Shown one piece after another: positions 5-19,150 of a DNA stretch of 22,341 nt. Every line of letters starts with the position of its first letter. Position 1 is the first letter of the stretch. The notes under the pieces are model-generated. The model worked only from the letters and a program-made list of their open reading frames with translations, did no database searches and had not been told where the DNA came from. The position numbers and the translations under genes were made by a program. The stretch covers positions 1-22,341 of IMG/VR virus record IMGVR_UViG_3300033153_001670, one strand, 5' to 3'. The stretch is from a virus.

Positions 5-586
5 TTATTGTGGTAAATAACTGTATCTTGAATTTGTTACTTTTATTCCCAATTGTTCTATATTATCTCTAATTGTGTTTCTAAATACTATTGGAGATTT
101 AAATTGTGTTCCTGCATCAGGAAATATGTCATCATTTTGTTCTGTTCCATATTCTGGAAATAAACTATTGTTAAAACATAAGTAATCTACCAATCTTTCA
201 CTAAAATATTCAGCCTTATTCTTTACTGAACGTCTTTTCTTATCATATACTATCATATCCACAGATAATGCATTATCACCTCCTTGTGGTTGTAATAACC
301 CATTATTTCTTGGTCTTAAATATATAGATTCTAATGATTCATAATATGACCAGTATAATAAACTATCTTGAATATAATCATCTACAAGAGATTTATAATT
401 TCCTGTCAAAGTTCCTGCATCAACATCATCTATTATCTTATCATATAATTTTGTTCCTAGTAATCTAGTTATGTGAATAATCTGTGCCTCTCTAATTGTT
501 GATTTAATTAAAGAAGGGTCTAAATTATTGTTTATATCTGTAAATGCTTTTACTTTAGCTTCCGATATTAGTAATGTATTTTGCAT
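5..586 (-). CDS. Probable head-tail connector/adaptor protein
   Basis: A 193-residue soluble protein with no signal peptide or membrane segment. It starts with the ATG at 584-586, which shares one base with the portal stop codon (TAATG), so it is probably translated by re-initiation after the portal gene. Its N-terminal half is largely helical in appearance, with a run of acidic and aromatic residues (DDYIQDSLLYWSYYESLES, about residues 69-87). This size and position directly after the portal gene fit the small head-completion or adaptor proteins that bind the portal ring. The function is inferred mainly from position; no catalytic motif is visible. It could instead be another minor head protein. 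The stop codon lies 4 bases inside the window edge, so the gene is complete. Confidence 0.5.
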   Translation of the reverse strand: MQNTLLISEAKVKAFTDINNNLDPSLIKSTIREAQIIHITRLLGTKLYDKIIDDVDAGTLTGNYKSLVDDYIQDSLLYWSYYESLESIYLRPRNNGLLQPQGGDNALSVDMIVYDKKRRSVKNKAEYFSERLVDYLCFNNSLFPEYGTEQNDDIFPDAGTQFKSPIVFRNTIRDNIEQLGIKVTNSRYSYLPQ

Positions 587-1821
587 TATATTATTCCTTC
601 GTTTTTTGGTTTCTCTTGTATGTTAACTATATTTTCTTCTATACCATCTTCTAGTATCTCACCTGAACCACTTTCTTCATCTACTGATGTTACTACTTCT
701 GTTTCATCACCATCTTCAAATATTCTTGTAGTTTCTACACCTAGTGTTATATCCATTCCATTTACTTTAAATATATCTGTAAATACTGTTAAGATATCAG
801 ATTGTATTGGTTCTATTACTGTTTTTTGGAAATGTGCATAAGCTTCTAACATCTCTGTTCTACCACCTAACTGACCTTCTGTTTTAATTCCTAAAATCAT
901 AGGAGATGTAATCCTATGAGATGTAAGTATCTTTTGAGTGACCATATCATTAACAGTAGTGTAATACCCATCAGCACCATTTTGTGGTATTGGTGTGATG
1001 ACAGGTGCTTCTTCTTTGTTAGCAACATCCATATAAATAAGAGAACCAGCATTATCACTTCCTGCATATGCCTCTCTTAATTGTTGTTCTATTACTCCTC
1101 GTTCTTCATTATCAGCATTTGTAAATGTTGTAATTGAAAGGGACGGAGCTAATCCATTTTTAATATTGTTTTTATGAAAATTATCTATTTCTGCATCAAG
1201 TGCTATAATGTTAAGACCTGAATTATAATCCGGTAGAGGATAATACCTCATACCTGGTTCATAGTTTCCAGCATAGATAATTTGTGATGGAGATGTTCTA
1301 TCTAACTTATTAAATCTAGGTATATAAGTTAAATCTTCTTTTGGAAGTCTTAATCTCCCTCTGTTTTGGAATGCAGATGAAATGTAATATCCTGGAACAA
1401 TTCCTCTGTTATTCATCTTATGTGCTCTTACATAAGAAAAATCTATGTGATATACTTCTGCAATTTTTGTTCTATCGTTAGACCATATTACTTCTAATGC
1501 AAATCCACCAAACATTACTTTATCTAAAGCTACTTTTTTGAATATATCATTCCAACTTTCACCTTCTTTGTTTGCATATTCTAAAATACTCTCATCTTCT
1601 GTTGTTAATCCTTGTCCTACAACAGCATCTCTCTTAGATGATATCGCAGTTCCATTTATAGAAGATTTGTTGTATAATTCAATTATATACTGTGGAAACT
1701 CATTTGCTTCCCCATAATATACTACATCACCTTTATCATCTTCAAATACTTTTGTAGTAGGATAATAATAATCTCCGTACTTAGGAATGATAGTTAGTTT
1801 ATGTTTATTTAATTTTTTCAT
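586..1821 (-). CDS. Portal protein
   Basis: Phage portal protein, the dodecameric ring through which DNA is packaged at one vertex of the head. About 411 residues, the usual size for compact portals. The order of features fits the family: an early segment following a GEANEFPQYI motif, a helical stem region, and a late conserved segment HRITSPMILGIKTEGQLGG followed by the long helix containing TEMLEAYAHFQKTVIEPIQ. The C-terminus is acidic and probably flexible. An ATG at 1857 in the same frame would add 12 residues but overlap the upstream gene by 35 bases. The ATG at 1821 lies 1 base after that gene's stop and has AAGGG just upstream, so I prefer it. The stop overlaps the next start (TAATG). 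Placement after the capsid gene is unusual; portals normally precede it. Confidence 0.85.
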   Translation of the reverse strand: MKKLNKHKLTIIPKYGDYYYPTTKVFEDDKGDVVYYGEANEFPQYIIELYNKSSINGTAISSKRDAVVGQGLTTEDESILEYANKEGESWNDIFKKVALDKVMFGGFALEVIWSNDRTKIAEVYHIDFSYVRAHKMNNRGIVPGYYISSAFQNRGRLRLPKEDLTYIPRFNKLDRTSPSQIIYAGNYEPGMRYYPLPDYNSGLNIIALDAEIDNFHKNNIKNGLAPSLSITTFTNADNEERGVIEQQLREAYAGSDNAGSLIYMDVANKEEAPVITPIPQNGADGYYTTVNDMVTQKILTSHRITSPMILGIKTEGQLGGRTEMLEAYAHFQKTVIEPIQSDILTVFTDIFKVNGMDITLGVETTRIFEDGDETEVVTSVDEESGSGEILEDGIEENIVNIQEKPKNEGII

Positions 1822-2389: not shown

Positions 2390-2926
2390 TTATTGTGAAA
2401 CAGTTATTCCTGTTAATGCACCAGCCAAGCTTGAACCAGAGATAAAATCTGCTGGTTGTGGTTCTTGAGCAGTGAATGTTAAGGTGTAACCATTTGCGTC
2501 ACCTAAAGCAGTTCCTGACTGACCTTGTCCGGCGTTAAGTACAGCTCCATTTCTTCTACCTACATAAATAAACTTCTCTGAAGCAGAATCATTATTCGTT
2601 TCAACAACGATTTTTAAGTCTGGGTTCTGAGCAAGTATTTTTACTTGGTTTCTAGTTGAAGTTTGTAATTTCGCGAACGCGGCGTTTACCGTAGCCTCGT
2701 AAAAGACCGTTTGGTTTTCAGTTGAACCATTGATTGTTTCTGTAAAATCAGAAGTTCCCCTTTGTAAATCAAACTGATAAAAAACTCCTGTACCATCAAT
2801 ATCAGATATTTCGTTTGAAGTATCTGTAATAGATGAAACTGAGCCAGAGAGGATGTAAATCGCTTTGATTCCACCTGAGTTGTCTCTACATCCTAATGCA
2901 AATCCACTTGTAATATCACATGCCAT
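2390..2926 (-). CDS. Probable major tail (tube) protein
   Basis: A 178-residue protein whose opening (MACDITSGFALGCRDNSGGIK) matches a family I recall as abundant structural proteins of Bacteroidota phages, usually placed next to the major capsid gene and considered the tail tube subunit. The rest is beta-rich, with the conserved pattern of a short strand block (GTGVFYQFDLQRGTSDFTE), a helix (NAAFAKLQTSTRNQVKILAQ) and a late segment ending in LTFTAQEPQPADFI. This arrangement fits a tube-type beta-sandwich with one helix. It has one of the strongest SD sequences in the window, which fits a high-copy virion protein. The tail-tube assignment rests on family memory and context; a head decoration protein is the main alternative. 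Confidence 0.55.
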   Translation of the reverse strand: MACDITSGFALGCRDNSGGIKAIYILSGSVSSITDTSNEISDIDGTGVFYQFDLQRGTSDFTETINGSTENQTVFYEATVNAAFAKLQTSTRNQVKILAQNPDLKIVVETNNDSASEKFIYVGRRNGAVLNAGQGQSGTALGDANGYTLTFTAQEPQPADFISGSSLAGALTGITVSQ

Positions 2927-2934
2927 AATTTATT

Positions 2935-2942
2935 CCTCCTTT
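2935..2942 (-). promoter_or_regulatory. Strong ribosome binding site of the tail tube gene
   Basis: AAAGGAGG on the minus strand, 8 bases before the ATG at 2926. It is a near-perfect match to the anti-SD of 16S rRNA and stands out because most genes in this window have no SD. Confidence 0.85.
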
Positions 2943-2948
2943 AGTTGA

Positions 2949-3866
2949 TTATAGGTTGTTAGTTACCCAAAAAGATGGGAATGCTACTTGAACACCTAAT
3001 TTAGTTACAATTCTATGTTTCAGTTGGTCACCATTGATGTCATACCACATTTGGAAGTTATCCAAATCAGATACTAAGTCAGTTCCAATTGCGATTTGTC
3101 TAGCTGGACCAGTTACGATTCTGTTAGAACCTGCTAATCCTACTGTTCCTACAACTCTTAAGTTAGCGAATGGGTGCATTGCTGAAAGTAATGAACCTCT
3201 ATTCTCTACTGTATTCGGGTCATAGAAATAGTTGTTTGCTTTTCTTAATCCTACGATGTACTTTCTAAAGTTAGCGATTGACATAAATACTGTTAAGTCA
3301 TCTCTATCTTGTACGTCTGCTGGTACGTTCTCTAATTGCTCATCAATCTGGTCTAAAATGTTATCAGATGTTGGAGCTGATTGAGATACGAATACTGCAT
3401 CAGATGAACCTGAAGCTAATAGTGTATTAAGACCATTAACACAGTCACCAGCACCAGTTGTAGCCGTCCAAATAAACTCATCGTTTTTCTTTTGGAAGTT
3501 AGCAACTAATTGAGATGCATATTCTTCTGCGAATGCATAAGTTTCAGGATAAGAACCTTTAGGGCCTAATAGACCAATATACTTCTTATCTAAATCTCTT
3601 AAACATAGTCCATCGTATGAACTTCTTTGACATACTTCTAAATCTCTTTGAGTATATGTCACTTCTCCAGATGCAGATGTAATACATCCGAATCCGTCTT
3701 GTATTTGTAAATCTACTTCTTGTAGATTTAAGGGCTCTTTATATTTAATCCCTTCAATTACGGTTACATATTCCGCAGTAGAACCAGCGATTACTGATTT
3801 TACTAGGAATTCACCTGCTAATTCATTGTTAAAATCTGCTAATGCAGATACGTTAAATCCTGCCAT
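2949..3866 (-). CDS. Major capsid protein (HK97 fold)
   Basis: A 305-residue protein that builds the icosahedral head shell. It lies directly after the scaffold and protease genes in the direction of transcription, the normal place for a major capsid protein. The sequence shows an N-terminal arm, a P-domain-like long helix region (YAFAEEYASQLVANFQKKNDEFIW), and a C-terminal half with LTVFMSIANFRKYIVGLRKANNYF and a late beta segment (RIVTKLGVQVAFPSFWVTN), a pattern typical of HK97-fold capsids of Bacteroidota phages. It is short for the fold and has no obvious long prohead delta domain, consistent with use of a separate scaffold protein. Five Cys residues are present, unusual for a cytoplasmically assembled shell. 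The ATG is preceded by a good SD. Confidence 0.85.
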   Translation of the reverse strand: MAGFNVSALADFNNELAGEFLVKSVIAGSTAEYVTVIEGIKYKEPLNLQEVDLQIQDGFGCITSASGEVTYTQRDLEVCQRSSYDGLCLRDLDKKYIGLLGPKGSYPETYAFAEEYASQLVANFQKKNDEFIWTATTGAGDCVNGLNTLLASGSSDAVFVSQSAPTSDNILDQIDEQLENVPADVQDRDDLTVFMSIANFRKYIVGLRKANNYFYDPNTVENRGSLLSAMHPFANLRVVGTVGLAGSNRIVTGPARQIAIGTDLVSDLDNFQMWYDINGDQLKHRIVTKLGVQVAFPSFWVTNNL

Positions 3867-3874
3867 GATTAATT

Positions 3875-3880
3875 CTCCTT
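3875..3880 (-). promoter_or_regulatory. Ribosome binding site of the major capsid gene
   Basis: AAGGAG on the minus strand, 8 bases before the capsid ATG at 3866. It overlaps the end of the scaffold gene, coupling the two. Confidence 0.85.
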
Positions 3881-4589
3881 ATTTTTTGTTTTTGTTTTTG
3901 ATTTTAAGTAATCTTTCAAATTGTCTTTTCTTATCCTCGTTTATTGGATTATAAGAAGTATCCTTCTTTGAAACATTTCTCGATTTAATTTCTGCTTTGG
4001 TTCTTTCCGCTGCAGGTGCTAATGCAAATTCTTCAACCTTAGTTTCAGTTGCAGAAAACTTTTTCTTCATTTCTTCAATTTCTTCTTTCAATTCTTCGAT
4101 AATCGGTAGAACTGATTCAGCAATTGCTTTAATGATTTCTTCTTTGTCTTCTAGTACAACTTCTTCTTCGATTATTTCTTCTTCGAATTTTTCATCAGAC
4201 TTGTTTGATTCAGTTTCTTTTGTATCTTCAGACATTTTTTCTTCGATTACAATTTCTTCTTCCTCAGCCGCTTCAATTTCTCCTTCAGAAATTTCAACAA
4301 TTGAACCACCTTCGGTTTTAATAAACACACCTCCTTCCAACGCGTGTTCTCCATCCGGTGCTGGTACACTACCATCATCTGTTTTAACAAATATTGGTAA
4401 TCCCACAGAGAGTTCTTCTCCTTCATAAGTAAGAGTAAGTTCTCCATCAGCCGTTAAAATTTCTCCAAAAGATTGTTCAGCAGCAACTTCTGACAATTCA
4501 ACTTTAGTTTCTTCCACAGTTTCTTCTACTGTTGGTTCAACTAAGTTAAAATGTTTTTTAACTAAATTCTTTAGTTCTTCGTTGTTCAT
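3879..4589 (-). CDS. Capsid scaffold-like protein
   Basis: A 236-residue, strongly acidic, low-complexity protein between the maturation protease and the major capsid gene, the classical place of a scaffold. Residues 40-100 form a beta-rich module with the motif VPAPDGEHALEGG. Residues about 105-185 are Glu/Lys-rich and predicted coiled coil. The C-terminus (from about residue 197) is basic, ending in a Lys/Asn-rich tail, as is usual for capsid-binding scaffold ends. An ATG at 4616 in frame would add 9 residues, but the ATG at 4589 has an ideal SD 6 bases upstream and is chosen. The C-terminal segment of the upstream protease has a similar DGTYELTNG motif, so the two proteins may share a module. 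It is probably cut by the XkdF-like protease during maturation (inference). Confidence 0.75.
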   Translation of the reverse strand: MNNEELKNLVKKHFNLVEPTVEETVEETKVELSEVAAEQSFGEILTADGELTLTYEGEELSVGLPIFVKTDDGSVPAPDGEHALEGGVFIKTEGGSIVEISEGEIEAAEEEEIVIEEKMSEDTKETESNKSDEKFEEEIIEEEVVLEDKEEIIKAIAESVLPIIEELKEEIEEMKKKFSATETKVEEFALAPAAERTKAEIKSRNVSKKDTSYNPINEDKKRQFERLLKIKNKNKK

Positions 4590-4595
4590 AATAAA

Positions 4596-4601
4596 CTCCT
4601 T
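4596..4601 (-). promoter_or_regulatory. Ribosome binding site that fixes the scaffold start
   Basis: AAGGAG, inside a longer A-run, lies 6 bases before the ATG at 4589. It lies after the alternative ATG at 4616, and so supports the shorter protein. Confidence 0.8.
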
Positions 4602-6812: not shown

Positions 6813-7265
6813 TTAAACTTTTTTATATACAATACAACAAACACTACCATAGGATACTTTAAACTCATCTGCAATCGTTTGTAAAAGATTTACTATTTTA
6901 CCATTATATGTTTTTCTTTGTTGATAAAATGTATCTTTTATTTGTTTGTTTCTTTCAGATGGGTAATTAAATCTTTGTTGCATATTTTCATATTGTGTTC
7001 CCCATTGTAGATTATCTACATAATTGTTCTTTGGGTTATTATCTTTATGCATTACAATATCAACATATTTGTTTACTTTCTTAATAAATGCCATTGCTAC
7101 TAATCTATGTACATACATCCATTTACCATTTAAACAAACTTGTAAATGTCTATTACCATTTGTTGCTCTTGGTTTTAACCAAATACCTTTATGAATAGAT
7201 AAAACTCTACCTTGATTTGATATTAAGTAATTTGGGAATTGTGTAAGTGATTTAAATTTTTCCAT
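6813..7265 (-). CDS. Free-standing homing HNH endonuclease (NUMOD4-HNH)
   Basis: A 150-residue DNA nuclease of the homing type. Residues 5-24 (SLTQFPNYLISNQGRVLSIH) fit NUMOD4, a DNA-binding module. Residues 52-95 carry the HNH core (VHRLVAMAFI, VMHKDNNPKNN, NLQWGTQYEN) with likely metal/catalytic His53, His73 and Asn residues around 80-81. The last 25 residues (IVNLLQTIADEFKVSYGSVCC) look like a helix-turn-helix specificity tail. Such genes spread by cutting a related genome lacking them. It lies between the tape measure and protease genes, 54 bases after the tape measure stop, and has no SD. The neighbouring tape measure is frameshifted near its 3' end, a possible side effect of homing. No intron core was recognised, so I treat it as intronless. 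Confidence 0.85.
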   Translation of the reverse strand: MEKFKSLTQFPNYLISNQGRVLSIHKGIWLKPRATNGNRHLQVCLNGKWMYVHRLVAMAFIKKVNKYVDIVMHKDNNPKNNYVDNLQWGTQYENMQQRFNYPSERNKQIKDTFYQQRKTYNGKIVNLLQTIADEFKVSYGSVCCIVYKKV

Positions 7266-9597: not shown

Positions 9598-9759
9598 ATG
9601 TGGAAATATTTAACAACTGAAGACATGTCTGGTTGGATAAAAGAATTAAAATATAAAAATAGTAATTTATATTGGAAATTATCAGCACAATGTAGAGCTA
9701 GAATACCAATGACTAAAGTAGCATATATACAGTTAAAGAAGAAATATACAAATGAATAG
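9598..9759 (+). CDS. Small basic protein of unknown function (53 residues)
   Basis: A short gene (53 residues) opening the plus-strand island. The protein begins MWKYLTTEDMSGWIKELKYK and ends in the lysine-rich QLKKKYTNE; it has three Trp and one Cys, with no membrane segment. The ATG follows an A-rich leader (AAAGTAAA) without SD. Its last codons overlap the start of the next gene by 8 bases in another frame, which supports both being real and translationally coupled. I do not recognise the family. Confidence 0.55.
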   Translation: MWKYLTTEDMSGWIKELKYKNSNLYWKLSAQCRARIPMTKVAYIQLKKKYTNE

Positions 9760-9925
9760 AGAAGAAAGACTAAGAGCTATTATAGAGGAGTTAAAGTATG
9801 AGAATCGTAAAGTAGAGTATGGTTCAGCATTAGAAAGGTTAACTAGACGTGTAGTAGAGTTAGAAGAAAAGGTAGAAGAATTAAAAGAAATCATTTACCA
9901 GCTTCGTGCAAAAAATATAATATAA
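9752..9925 (+). CDS. Small coiled-coil protein of unknown function (57 residues)
   Basis: A 57-residue, highly charged protein starting MNREERLRAIIEELKYENRK, with a continuous helix and heptad spacing of Leu, Val and Ile (LERLTRRVVELEEKVEELKEIIYQL), so very likely a coiled-coil dimer. It starts inside the end of the preceding gene (ATG 9752-9754) and ends 19 bases before the bS21 gene. Short coiled coils in such positions may be regulators or assembly factors, but nothing specific can be said from sequence. Confidence 0.6.
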   Translation: MNREERLRAIIEELKYENRKVEYGSALERLTRRVVELEEKVEELKEIIYQLRAKNII

Positions 9926-9944: not shown

Positions 9945-10229
9945 ATGGCAAAATTAGTTTCAGTTAAACTAAAAAAAGGTGAGAACTTCAACAAACTACT
10001 TTCACGATTTAAAAGAAAAGTTAGAAAATCAGAACATCTTATAGAGTATAGAAATAGACGAGAGTTTTTAAAACCCTCAGTTGTAAAAAGGCGTCAAAAA
10101 CAATTAGCTGTTAGAGAACAAGAACTTGCAACTAAAAAAGAAAAGATAGAGAATGGTGATACATCAGTAACTCTATATTCTAAAAAACCAAAGAAAGTAA
10201 AACCAAAGAAAGAAGATAAACAAAAATAA
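9945..10229 (+). CDS. rpsU: Phage-encoded ribosomal protein bS21
   Basis: Residues 1-55 match small-subunit ribosomal protein bS21: a short N-terminal strand (MAKLVSVKLKKGENFNKLL), the hallmark SRFKRKVRKSEHLIEYRNRREFLKPS, then a basic helix (VVKRRQKQLA). Bacterial bS21 is usually 55-70 residues; this one has 94 because of a Lys/Glu-rich C-terminal extension (about 60-94). bS21 sits on the 30S platform beside the 3' end of 16S rRNA and influences how the anti-SD is used. Homologues are known in several marine and freshwater phage genomes, where they are thought to replace or compete with the host protein in phage-modified ribosomes. The ATG is preceded by TTACAATAAT without SD. The gene lies in a five-gene plus-strand cluster between two coding blocks of the opposite strand. 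Confidence 0.85.
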   Translation: MAKLVSVKLKKGENFNKLLSRFKRKVRKSEHLIEYRNRREFLKPSVVKRRQKQLAVREQELATKKEKIENGDTSVTLYSKKPKKVKPKKEDKQK

Positions 10230-10232
10230 ATA

Positions 10233-10529
10233 ATGGAATCAAAATCAAGATTGTTAAATATAAATTACCTAAATTATAAGAAACAAAAACAAAGTTTAAA
10301 AAAGGAATATCCTAAACATATATTTAAAAACACATCCTCAGGAAGACATTCAATACCTTATCCAAAAGAAGATAGAGAACTCTATCAAGATTATGTAAAA
10401 AAGATAGCTGATTTACTATTTGAACCAAATGGTGATTTCCAAAAGTATTCTTGGGATGCTATGTCAGAACAAGAGAAACTTATTTCTGATAGATTTATTA
10501 ACGGAAGAAAACCATATGATTTATCATGA
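10233..10529 (+). CDS. Unknown protein following bS21 (98 residues)
   Basis: A 98-residue basic protein, rich in Lys, Tyr and Ser, without signal peptide or membrane segment. It begins MESKSRLLNINYLNYKKQKQ and contains SSGRHSIPYPKEDRELYQDYVKKIADLLF and a C-terminal WDAMSEQEKLISDRFINGRKPYDLS. The ATG lies 3 bases after the bS21 stop, and its own stop overlaps the next start (ATGA), so it is tightly coupled to both neighbours. I do not recognise the family. A role linked to bS21 or the following glycosyltransferase is possible from position only. Confidence 0.65.
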   Translation: MESKSRLLNINYLNYKKQKQSLKKEYPKHIFKNTSSGRHSIPYPKEDRELYQDYVKKIADLLFEPNGDFQKYSWDAMSEQEKLISDRFINGRKPYDLS

Positions 10530-12171: not shown

Positions 12172-12606
12172 TTATATATATTTTTTGAGCTTGGTTAACT
12201 TAGATTCCATATAATCATTAGTTCCCATTTCTGATATATAATCTTCTACAAAGGATATTGCTTCTTCAACTGTTTGACAATTTAGCTCATCTATTACTAT
12301 AAAATCTCTATCGGTTTCATCTATGAATATATCTAAATAATATCCTTCAGGTGATTTCCAAGTAGCACGATTTAAAACAGATGATTGAAAATCAGAATCA
12401 AACCAAGTAAATCTACCATTATCAAAAAGGGGATTACAACGATTAACAGAATCTATCTTAACATCTATCCATGTCTTTGGGTAATCGTTCTCTAAACCTT
12501 GTTTAAAACGAGAATAACCACCCAATACAACCATATCAGGTATAAGTTTCTGTACAGATTTTATCCAAGTATCTATATCAATACTAAATGTTTTTTTTCT
12601 AAACAT
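12172..12606 (-). CDS. Unknown protein between adhesin and glycosyltransferase (possible nucleotidyltransferase-like fold)
   Basis: A 144-residue acidic protein. It starts with the ATG at 12604-12606 that shares one base with the adhesin stop (TAATG); an in-frame TTG two codons earlier is a less likely start. It contains VLGGYSRFKQ followed by TWIDVKID and later YYLDIFIDE. A Gly-Gly followed by paired Asp strands is reminiscent of the polymerase-beta nucleotidyltransferase fold, but the second Asp of the first pair is missing, so catalysis is doubtful. The C-terminus is helical (TVEEAISFVEDYISEM). Coupling to the adhesin points to a role in its assembly, folding or modification, without direct evidence. 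Confidence 0.55.
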   Translation of the reverse strand: MFRKKTFSIDIDTWIKSVQKLIPDMVVLGGYSRFKQGLENDYPKTWIDVKIDSVNRCNPLFDNGRFTWFDSDFQSSVLNRATWKSPEGYYLDIFIDETDRDFIVIDELNCQTVEEAISFVEDYISEMGTNDYMESKLTKLKKYI

Positions 12607-15143
12607 TAACAAGTACTTGCAGTTCCTAAATCACCAAACCCATCTGATTCTCTACAAATATTTCCATCTGTCCAAAAGTTAGCATCTGCTGGAGTTCCAA
12701 CTAAATCTGAATAGATTACAGTTGCAATAGCGAAACTTGGTTCATTTAAATAAACTAGTTGAGAGTTTCCACCAGGATAGTTAGAACATACACTTGAACA
12801 ACTTACAGAACCATACTCTAAAGTAAATGGATAATAACATTGGTCTCCTTCAGTAATATTACCACTAGCAGATGTTACGAATGCTGAACCTGATAGAGCA
12901 CATACACTAAATCCAAAATCTTCTGCAATACTTACACTCTGTGCTACTCCCTCACAATCATCCCAACTAAATGAACAACCACTACCAACTGCTCCACTTC
13001 TACATTCCATATCATACTCTATACAATCTGCTGGATTAAGTGTAGTTGTTGTAGTTGTAGTTGTTGTAGTACTTGTTGTAGTTGTACTCGTTGTTGTTGT
13101 AGTAGTTGTAGAGGTTACATCACCACAATCAGAACTACATGATACTCCTGTTGGAGTAGCAACACCACTTACAGTAACAACACTTACTCCTCCACCTGCT
13201 TCTACACAAGCAACTGCATCTTGGTCAGGTCCTAAGAAATATCTTACTGTATTACCTGCACAACAATCAACATCAAAGGAACAAAATCCTCCTACTGCAG
13301 TTGATGGACAAAGTAAATCGTATTCAGTACAAGCCGCCGTTGTTGTAGTTGTAGTTGTTGTTGTAGGTGTAAGATTAACTTCAAGAGACCAAGAAGTTGC
13401 ACTATCTATATTTTGAGAACCATGTCCAAGAACTACACCTGTTGAAGGATAAGTAAGTTGTCCACTATCAGTATCTTGTATAACACCATCTGCTTTTAAT
13501 ATTGTTTGATAATTTATCGTACCATAATCAGGTGTACCACTTACATTGATAGTACTATTAACTGTTTGTATTCCACCAATAGATGCATTTGAACCTGTAT
13601 TTGTTGTACCAATAGGTATATCATTTAATCTTAAGTCATAAGGAGTACCTAGAAAACTAAAATCAATATCATTAGCTGATTGAGTAAATTCAGTATCAGT
13701 ACTATTACTACCTGTAATCTCTACTCTCTTTGTAGGAGGAGCAGTAGTAGTTGTGGTTGTAGTAGTTGTTGTACTTGTTGTTGTAGTACTTGTTGTGGTA
13801 GTACTTACATCTCCACATAATGAAGAACAAGGTGATTCGGGTGATGCTGGTGATGCAGTACCACTCGTTGATAATACAGTTACAATACTTCCACTTTCAA
13901 CACAGGCAACAGCATCTTGGTCTGCACCTAAATCATAAACTACTGTTACACCATCACAACAAGGAACACTATACTCACAGAAACCACCAGCTGCTGATGA
14001 TGGACATAATAAATCCCATTCTATACAATCAGGTGCTAGAGTAGTTGTAGTTGTTGTAGTAGTAGTTGTACTCGTAGTTGTAGTTGTTGTGGTAGTAGTT
14101 GTTGTCGTTGTAGGTAAACAATAAAAAGAACCATCATTTAATTTAGTATGTAAATCAGTTAACTGTGTTGGTGTTAACTTTCTATCATACATTAAAAATT
14201 GTCTAAATCCACCTGCATTTCTAAACAACTGATTCATTTCTGATATATTTGCTGATGTTCCTGCAAAATAATATTCAGTTGCAAAATCATCATTATCAAT
14301 ACTCATTGTCATTGCATCTAAAGAAGTATCACCACCTGTATTAGCTGTAAAAGCAATTGTTCTCCATTCATCCGAACCAACAAAGTTTGGTACATCAAGA
14401 GGTGATAGTGAAGATGTTGCATCAATACCAGTTCCACCATTAGTCATCCATTTTGATGTATCTGCAGTTTTATTTGGAGAACTTGGACTTGGTTTAAAAA
14501 CAGTTCCTGCTCCTATTATATTTAATCCTTCATTTCCACCAGCATCATCTAAATTATTAAACTGTGATGCTCCTCTACCTGAATAAGTATATCCAGCTAA
14601 TCTACCTTTCATTCTATAAATAAAGTGATAGTCTTTTCCAACTTCAAACTCCCAACCATTTCTAGTATAATCTAAATTAGAACCACTATAAGTTAAACCA
14701 TCTCTCCATGCATTAGCATAATCTCTTGTTGCTGAGCCTGTAAAGTAAAAAGCTTCATCACCTACATTCCAAGTTCCATTAGCTGCAAACCATGAATTAT
14801 CGGGTGATAAAGATGAAGATACAATGTTTGTTAATTCAAAACTAGCAGTATCAACATAGTTATCTAATTGTGTATTAAGATATATTCTAAGATTATCACA
14901 ATCAATACCTGAAACAGTACCAATAGTTACCTCGTTTGTACATAAACCTTCTGATTCTAATCTTATACATTGTGTAGCTTCATCTACAGTCACAACAGCT
15001 GTTGAACCAACTGTTGGTAAGAAAACATCATTACCATTTGGAGCTAAACTATAAGAAGCACAGTTTACACTATAATACACATCAAAGTAAGGCCCTGCAT
15101 TACTTCCTGATGTTAACGTTATTAATTTATCTATATTTGCCAT
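12606..15143 (-). CDS. Large Cys-rich, poly-threonine tail adhesin / receptor-binding protein
   Basis: About 845 residues, modular, without signal peptide. It has an N-terminal module (1-100) that may attach to the tail, and a beta-sandwich region (about 105-340) resembling a LamG/concanavalin-like carbohydrate-binding domain (ending RQFLMYDRKLTPTQL). Next come a Thr tract (~345-368), Cys-rich repeat 1 (~373-445: CIEWDLLCP, GGFC, CC, DQDAVACVE, CSSLCGD), a second Thr tract, and a beta domain (~470-592). These are followed by a third Thr tract, Cys repeat 2 (~605-675), a fourth Thr tract and a more divergent Cys repeat 3 (~706-786). The C-terminus ends WTDGNICRESDGFGDLG. Many cysteines suggest disulfides or metal sites outside the cell. 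It lies directly after two tail-tip-like genes, fitting a host-recognition fibre or tip protein. The Thr tracts are likely rigid linkers and possible O-glycosylation sites. Confidence 0.75.
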   Translation of the reverse strand: MANIDKLITLTSGSNAGPYFDVYYSVNCASYSLAPNGNDVFLPTVGSTAVVTVDEATQCIRLESEGLCTNEVTIGTVSGIDCDNLRIYLNTQLDNYVDTASFELTNIVSSSLSPDNSWFAANGTWNVGDEAFYFTGSATRDYANAWRDGLTYSGSNLDYTRNGWEFEVGKDYHFIYRMKGRLAGYTYSGRGASQFNNLDDAGGNEGLNIIGAGTVFKPSPSSPNKTADTSKWMTNGGTGIDATSSLSPLDVPNFVGSDEWRTIAFTANTGGDTSLDAMTMSIDNDDFATEYYFAGTSANISEMNQLFRNAGGFRQFLMYDRKLTPTQLTDLHTKLNDGSFYCLPTTTTTTTTTTTTTSTTTTTTTTTTLAPDCIEWDLLCPSSAAGGFCEYSVPCCDGVTVVYDLGADQDAVACVESGSIVTVLSTSGTASPASPESPCSSLCGDVSTTTTSTTTTSTTTTTTTTTTAPPTKRVEITGSNSTDTEFTQSANDIDFSFLGTPYDLRLNDIPIGTTNTGSNASIGGIQTVNSTINVSGTPDYGTINYQTILKADGVIQDTDSGQLTYPSTGVVLGHGSQNIDSATSWSLEVNLTPTTTTTTTTTAACTEYDLLCPSTAVGGFCSFDVDCCAGNTVRYFLGPDQDAVACVEAGGGVSVVTVSGVATPTGVSCSSDCGDVTSTTTTTTTSTTTTSTTTTTTTTTTLNPADCIEYDMECRSGAVGSGCSFSWDDCEGVAQSVSIAEDFGFSVCALSGSAFVTSASGNITEGDQCYYPFTLEYGSVSCSSVCSNYPGGNSQLVYLNEPSFAIATVIYSDLVGTPADANFWTDGNICRESDGFGDLGTASTC
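12780..13025 (-). repeat. Cys-rich repeat 3 of the adhesin (divergent)
   Basis: About 82 codons starting CIEYDMECRSGAVGSGC and ending CSSVCSN. It has diverged from repeats 1 and 2 and contains extra residues before the last Cys pair. Confidence 0.65.
13041..13115 (-). repeat. Poly-Thr coding triplet tract 4
   Basis: Minus-strand ACN codons (mostly ACA and ACT) coding about 24 residues of Thr with a few Ser, joining Cys repeats 2 and 3 of the adhesin. Confidence 0.85.
13119..13331 (-). repeat. Cys-rich repeat 2 of the adhesin
   Basis: About 71 codons, clearly homologous to repeat 1: CTEYDLLCP, GGFCSFDVDCC, DQDAVACVEAGG, CSSDCGD. Both copies sit between Thr tracts, consistent with duplication of a domain-plus-linker unit. 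Confidence 0.8.
13339..13370 (-). repeat. Poly-Thr coding triplet tract 3
   Basis: The shortest tract, about 10 Thr codons, lying between the central beta domain and Cys repeat 2. Confidence 0.8.
13743..13806 (-). repeat. Poly-Thr coding triplet tract 2
   Basis: About 20 Thr codons interrupted by Ser (AGT), between Cys repeat 1 and the central beta domain. Confidence 0.85.
13809..14027 (-). repeat. Cys-rich repeat 1 of the adhesin
   Basis: About 73 codons. It shares with repeat 2 (13119-13331) the pattern C-x-E-[WY]-D-L-L-C-P, GGFC, CC, G-x-DQDAVACVE, C-S-S-x-CGD. Repeat 3 (about 12780-13025) keeps the first and last Cys motifs but has lost the CC pair and the DQDAVACVE block. Confidence 0.8.
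14038..14113 (-). repeat. Poly-Thr coding triplet tract 1
   Basis: About 24 Thr codons with one Ser, between the LamG-like region and Cys repeat 1. Codons alternate among ACA, ACT, ACC and ACG, so the protein run, not a pure DNA microsatellite, is conserved. Confidence 0.85.
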
Positions 15144-18998: not shown

Positions 18999-19150
18999 TT
19001 CTTCCTTATATAATAATATATTTCTTTTCCTAGTACACCACCAATACCACCGATTATACCTAATAATAAAGCCATTCCAACTTCATATAAGCTCATGGTG
19101 TAAATTGATGTAAATGTAAAACCACTTAAAAATGAGAAGTTGTTATTCAT
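18989..19150 (-). CDS. Small single-span membrane protein (53 residues)
   Basis: Residues 1-18 are short and polar/aromatic (MNNNFSFLSGFTFTSIYT). Residues about 24-42 (VGMALLLGIIGGIGGVLGK) form one glycine-rich hydrophobic helix, and the end is basic (EIYYYIRKKWK). It overlaps the start of the gp10-like gene by 10 bases and starts 5 bases after the stop of the upstream gene at 19155, so it is embedded in the tail gene operon. The size and single membrane span could fit a pinholin-like or tail-tip membrane protein, but no lysis genes are next to it. Function unknown. Confidence 0.65.
   Translation of the reverse strand: MNNNFSFLSGFTFTSIYTMSLYEVGMALLLGIIGGIGGVLGKEIYYYIRKKWK

Follow-up and report, generated by a model that had tools for sequence, protein, structure and literature searches.

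What would a phage gain from supplying its own copy of ribosomal protein bS21? No other ribosomal protein is encoded by viruses as often. In Flavobacterium johnsoniae, Tyr54 of bS21 stacks against A1534 and steers the 16S tail toward bS18/bS6; both in vivo and in vitro, Y54A ribosomes give about 3-fold more output from a Shine-Dalgarno (SD) reporter, and removing the C-terminal part of bS21 raises it 4- to 5-fold (PMC9976891). The DNA analyzed here, a virus record of 22,341 bases that we call the window, encodes a bS21 and carries SDs before a few of its virion genes. The original prediction left two readings side by side: the phage protein changes access to the anti-SD in favor of SD-bearing genes, or it mimics host bS21 so that the anti-SD stays hidden. 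For which of these does the locus argue?

A bS21 cassette in a small phage genome

The minus strand of the window carries TerS, TerL, portal, tape measure and virion genes. The tape-measure gene and a second glycosyltransferase-like gene flank a cassette on the plus strand, p1-p2-bS21-p4-GT1 (Table 1). Because the 28,928-base sequence of a syntenic relative (G002) has ends that overlap by 130 bases at 99% identity, we take the phage genome to be about 28.8 kb (roughly 29 kb) and circularly assembled. The names capsid, scaffold and tail tube follow from gene order and size, as the PHROGs matches carry no function. An HNH endonuclease ORF (phrog_59; 6813-7265) sits between the tape-measure and protease genes and has no counterpart there in G002. 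A tail protein (12606-15143) has long Thr tracts between repeated Cys-rich modules. Scanning for -7/-33 promoters gave scattered matches only.

The original prediction presupposed a Bacteroidota host, and the portal, tail-tube and tail matches support it. Among portal matches in named phages, 100 of 109 were to phages of Bacteroidota (71 Bacteroides, 24 Phocaeicola, 4 Nonlabens and 1 OM05-12), and the tail-tube and tail-protein matches were to Nonlabens phages only. The nearest cultured relative is Nonlabens phage P12024S (Inhavirus), related through the portal, tail tube and tail protein at 23-29% identity; no bS21 is annotated in it, and its matching genes have no SDs. A portal search of 297 Bacteroidota genomes found matches in 2, too few to name a host. 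At the level of the phylum, a Bacteroidota host is likely from these comparisons.

Both the bS21 homologue and its C-terminal extension were borne out. PF01165 matches residues 6-59 of 94 at 44.8 bits against a curated cut-off of 27, and the protein has 94 aa compared with 64 aa in F. johnsoniae bS21. Among solved structures, 9i5v and F. johnsoniae 7jil match it best. The predicted model has three main helices (pTM 0.40) and is uninformative on ribosome contacts. A single-protein scan of genomes turned up no host protein close to the phage bS21.

Table 1. Positions in the window of the genes, residues and SDs discussed; energies are in kcal/mol
Feature	Position	Strand	Remarks
Putative g1, head-completion or connector-like gene	5..586	-	phrog_35048; weak match to phrog_21325, virion structural protein
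SD of g1, GAAGGA	595..600	-	-6.5 here (moderate); -8.7 to -9.4 in relatives
Putative tail-tube gene	2390..2926	-	phrog_19091, function not annotated; homologue in Nonlabens phage P12024S
SD of tail-tube gene, AAAGGAGG	2935..2942	-	-12.0; retained in G002 and G006 despite different flanks
Putative major capsid protein gene	2949..3866	-	phrog_11320, function not annotated; gene order
SD of major capsid gene, AAGGAG	3875..3880	-	-8.2; at or below -6 in 25 of 26 rows of its clade
Putative scaffold gene	3879..4589	-	starts at internal ATG 4589, not 4616, from SD spacing and ortholog starts
SD of scaffold gene, AAGGAG	4596..4601	-	-8.8; -6.8 in relatives
p1, 53 aa, bS21-linked	9598..9759	+	conserved beside bS21 in G002, G006, G303, G304, G305 and L016
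p2, coiled-coil-like, between p1 and bS21	9752..9925	+	in G002, G006 and L187; weak coiled-coil matches only
Phage bS21, 94 aa	9945..10229	+	PF01165; leader -0.8
Arg57 codon, site of F. johnsoniae Tyr54	10113..10115	+	ungapped alignment with 7jil and 9i5v
bS21 C-terminal extension, Lys-rich, residues 65-94 (about 30 residues)	10137..10226	+	missing from F. johnsoniae bS21; low model confidence
p4, 98 aa, bS21-linked	10233..10529	+	no recognized family; HMM matches only on non-Tyr54 bS21 contigs
SD of gp10-like gene	19001..19007	-	-5.1 here; -1.4, 0.2, -3.1 and 0.9 in relatives

Residue 54 and the linked proteins p1 and p4

The aromatic residue that marks position 54 (F. johnsoniae numbering) in the anti-SD-sequestering bS21 of Bacteroidia type is absent from the window bS21, which has Arg (Arg57) there. 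Since Chen et al. found an aromatic residue at this position in 61 of 61 bS21s from Bacteroidetes phages (PMC9723584), Arg57 is a departure for a phage bS21. The same Arg occurs in L002, L003, G303, G304 and G305, making six family members in all. Across 80 viral bS21 loci and the window, residue 54 was Tyr in 38, Arg in 29 and Ala in 9, with a few others, and many of the non-Tyr proteins look proteobacterial.

Is the Arg, then, peculiar to phages? It is not: Arg is common there among Bacteroidota beyond the Tyr54 group (58 of 90 genomes, in a sample partly chosen by score), which rules it out as a phage-only trait. In a bS21 tree of only 55 columns, built without column 54, the phage Arg54 proteins grouped inside the Tyr54 Bacteroidia side (98/94) and the Arg54 hosts were separate from them (96/98). 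Joining the phage clade with the Arg54 hosts was not formally rejected by the AU test (p = 0.118). Because the tree nests the phage proteins among Tyr54 Bacteroidia, Tyr54 was probably lost within the phage lineage.

One host group, G071, has the local AVREQ signature in common with the window bS21. Together with G067, G048, G052, G098 and others (L428, L439-L441 and L447), it is a Bacteroidota lineage with an Arg54 bS21 and SD-poor genomes. SD frequencies in genome segments of the G071 group, compared with shuffled leaders, were 13% and 10%, 24% and 8%, and 14% and 20%, about equal in two of three. SDs were near chance in the sampled Bacteroidota host segments generally (12-47 genes each), for Tyr54 and Arg54 alike.

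At all loci examined, p4 and p1 were confined to contigs with a non-Tyr54 bS21, except for the end of the L187 contig, which stops before bS21. A scan of viral contigs with p4 only returned nine loci, every one with a bS21, and the two new ones (L482 and L483) have Arg54. The small proteins accompany non-Tyr54 bS21 (L012-L014, L016-L019, L482 and L483) even where bS21 is inverted (L016), and the linkage holds despite another capsid type (L012 and L482). p4 is predicted to be helical (pLDDT 81); its fold had no match in the PDB and one viral model without a name, A0A516LX63.

SDs of the head module

Duplex energies were computed between the 20 bases before each start and ACCUCCUUUCU, which we take to be the F. 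johnsoniae 16S tail. The strong SDs predicted for the tail-tube, capsid and scaffold genes were all found (Table 1). The moderate one at the gp10-like gene is not conserved in four relatives and is probably due to chance. Most other starts lack an SD, as had been claimed, but a fourth had been overlooked, at g1. The proposed restriction to virion genes was too broad: it holds for the head module, and the tape-measure, long tail protein, TerL and protease genes mostly have none. Hence SDs as a general property of virion genes are ruled out in favor of the head module only.

Leaders at or below -8 kcal/mol preceded 3 of 25 window genes; shuffled leaders averaged 0.14 and never gave 3 in 1000 rounds. 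Under a harsher control that used every ATG in the window, 4.2% reached this threshold, and the real proof of the SDs is therefore their conservation. G002 and G006 retain them with other flanks and other spacing. An SD at or below -6 preceded the four head genes in 20 of 20 cases (the window, G002, G303, G304 and G305), compared with 5 of 58 for the other shared genes, so that the same genes bear SDs in all five phages.

About 150 related loci were recovered by scanning with alignments of portal and capsid. Where capsid identity was at least 76%, SDs were present at the capsid gene in 14 of 14 distinct leaders and at the tail-tube, scaffold and g1 genes in 92%, 90% and 88%; at 50-63% identity they were mostly absent (capsid, 8%; tail tube, 15%; scaffold, 7%; g1, 21%). 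The SD-positive contigs formed one 26-row clade in the capsid tree (100/100 support), and the other 48 rows were nearly SD-less. Besides the window, G002 and G006, bS21 scored above the cut-off in 4 of 19 records of the SD-positive clade, the other 15 being fragments, and in none of 14 long records (16-27 kb, one of them complete, G325) of SD-less clades. These bS21s have Arg in the window, G002, G006, G303, G304 and G305 and Tyr in G316, a complete 27-kb relative with a 127-base end repeat, in which bS21 adjoins TerL instead of the tape-measure gene. The G316 bS21 is probably an independent acquisition within the same SD-positive clade. Searching with bS21 identified three further SD-positive family members with Arg54 (L016, L017 and L019).

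Counted over genes, which are non-independent, SDs at or below -6 occurred in 36 of 116 genes of Arg54 phages versus 10 of 207 in bS21-less sisters, or 23 of 254 (again non-independent) when G322 and G323 were included among the sisters. G322 and G323 (L345-L348) are relatives of about 27 kb that have strong SDs, mostly on non-head genes, and no bS21.

Does Arg54 predict SD use more widely? Phages L012 and L482/L483 have an Arg54 bS21 and p4, yet their capsid-region genes lack SDs, and in G005, also Arg54, SDs are at chance level. Conversely, SDs occur with a Tyr54 bS21 in L021 and L023 and at the tail-tube gene of G316. In L021 and L023, several genes in the neighborhood of bS21 have SDs, among them the one immediately downstream (-8.2). 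As a general predictor, Arg54 is ruled out by these phages; it is neither necessary nor sufficient for SD use, and the link is specific to the window's clade. There, head SDs coincide with bS21, but the SDs were gained roughly once and bS21 once or twice. With an SD gain that amounts to about a single event on the tree, the association depends on one or two changes.

Possible effects on the host ribosome

We propose, tentatively and at somewhat short of an even chance, that the Arg57 bS21 weakens anti-SD sequestration and that the head-module SDs exploit the anti-SD so freed. Ordinary host ribosomes would translate the phage bS21, which has no SD. The product, an exchangeable ribosomal protein lacking the Tyr54 contact to 16S A1534, would compete with host bS21 for the 30S platform. 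Subunits that took it up would grip the 16S 3' tail more loosely, leaving the anti-SD available, and the head-module mRNAs (scaffold, capsid, tail tube and g1), SD-bearing unlike most host and sister-phage genes, would then initiate better. The sequences show the genes, the residue difference, and the conserved SDs with their confinement to the head module and to the bS21-bearing clade; incorporation into host ribosomes, the weakening by Arg, its timing and its benefit are inferred.

Arg in place of Tyr54, and head SDs in the bS21 clade and not in its bS21-less sisters, lend partial support to the predicted change in anti-SD access; the single SD gain or so, Arg54 without SDs, and SDs with Tyr54 or with no bS21 tell against it. 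Further points against the mechanism are that Arg is able to stack on a base, that the other components of the pocket, bS18 and bS6, come unchanged from the host, and that Arg is common in Bacteroidota genomes with which the AU test would still allow the phage clade to be joined. On balance, the evidence favors a freed anti-SD over mimicry, unproven as this is.

Could the phage protein instead replace host bS21 and keep the anti-SD hidden, or bias mRNA choice through its N-terminal half as in the model of Chen et al., with Arg57 tolerated and the head SDs caused otherwise? Phage bS21s have generally been proposed as substitutes that select phage mRNA (PMC9723584), Arg is the usual residue in many Bacteroidota that do not belong to the Tyr54 group and likewise have SD-poor genomes, and Arg54 phages without SDs exist. 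However, the Tyr contact has been tested in F. johnsoniae and matters (PMC9976891), the phage protein nests with Tyr54 proteins, and head SDs in the window's clade and not in its sisters are left unexplained; we regard this reading as unlikely. Still less probable, in our judgment, is that the head SDs exploit bS21-less ribosomes, host bS21 being titrated, displaced or degraded in infection and the phage bS21 serving other mRNAs or later repair. Such ribosomes do initiate faster on SD mRNA (PMC9976891), p1 and p4 could act in the exchange, and G322 and G323 have SDs without a phage bS21, but no protease or displacement factor was recognized and p4 has no known fold match. A host shift, in which the SD-positive clade infects an SD-reading lineage, strong SDs simply go with high expression and the phage bS21 resembles that of the host, is equally improbable: Arg54 occurs in many Bacteroidota lineages, and the G071 group shares AVREQ, yet SDs in that group are about as frequent as in shuffled leaders in two of three genomes, most phage genes have no SDs, and the tree puts the phage bS21 elsewhere.

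The freed anti-SD that we favor has a parallel in the host. Host rpsU has an extended SD and is autoregulated by bS21-less ribosomes; there, too, an SD is read by ribosomes with a freed anti-SD. In the phage the SDs are on head genes, and bS21 itself has none: its leader energies are -0.8 in the window and G002, -1.0 in G006, -2.2 in G303, -1.3 in G304 and 0.2 in G305, unlike the rpsU median of -16.0 in Tyr54 host genomes. Lacking an SD, the phage bS21 would therefore escape rpsU-type feedback.

Phage bS21, its late expression and ribosome re-tuning have been published as ideas (PMC9723584, PMC6375957, PMC9976891). The Bacteroidetes myophages of Chen et al. 2022 (PMC9723584) also have a Bacteroidetes-type bS21 on the strand opposite the structural genes, with late selection of phage mRNA proposed; theirs is aromatic at position 54 and lies beside TerL/capsid genes in genomes of up to 331 kb, whereas the window phage, at about 29 kb, has Arg54, the p1-bS21-p4 cassette and head-module SDs. 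The Y54A and C-terminal deletion mutants of F. johnsoniae (McNutt et al. 2023, PMC9976891) likewise lose the Tyr54 contact, and better use of SD mRNA would be expected of both; they are laboratory variants of a host protein, whereas the phage protein has Arg and a Lys-rich tail. The bS21 of Pelagibacter phage HTVC008M, a virus protein shown to enter E. coli 70S ribosomes, differs in its proteobacterial host and residue context (Mizuno et al. 2019, PMC6375957). A literature search, mainly of open-access papers, returned no report of a Tyr54-less bS21 in Bacteroidota phages, of head-module-restricted SDs or of p1/p4 linkage. The novelty is the Tyr54-less variant and its linkage, not phage bS21 as such.

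In this phage, the key residue of the one host system understood mechanistically is changed, and within its clade, though not among the sister phages, a defined set of genes bears the matching mRNA signal. A fuller version, in which a swapped-in Tyr-less bS21 makes SD-blind Bacteroidota ribosomes read SDs that evolved only on capsid-module genes, is doubtful; it would amount to a phage-made specialized ribosome with a defined cis code, possibly aided by p1 and p4. Viral ribosome specialization of this kind is directly testable in F. johnsoniae with existing reporters. The comparisons suggest, and do not prove, that the phage re-tunes the host ribosome for particle production.
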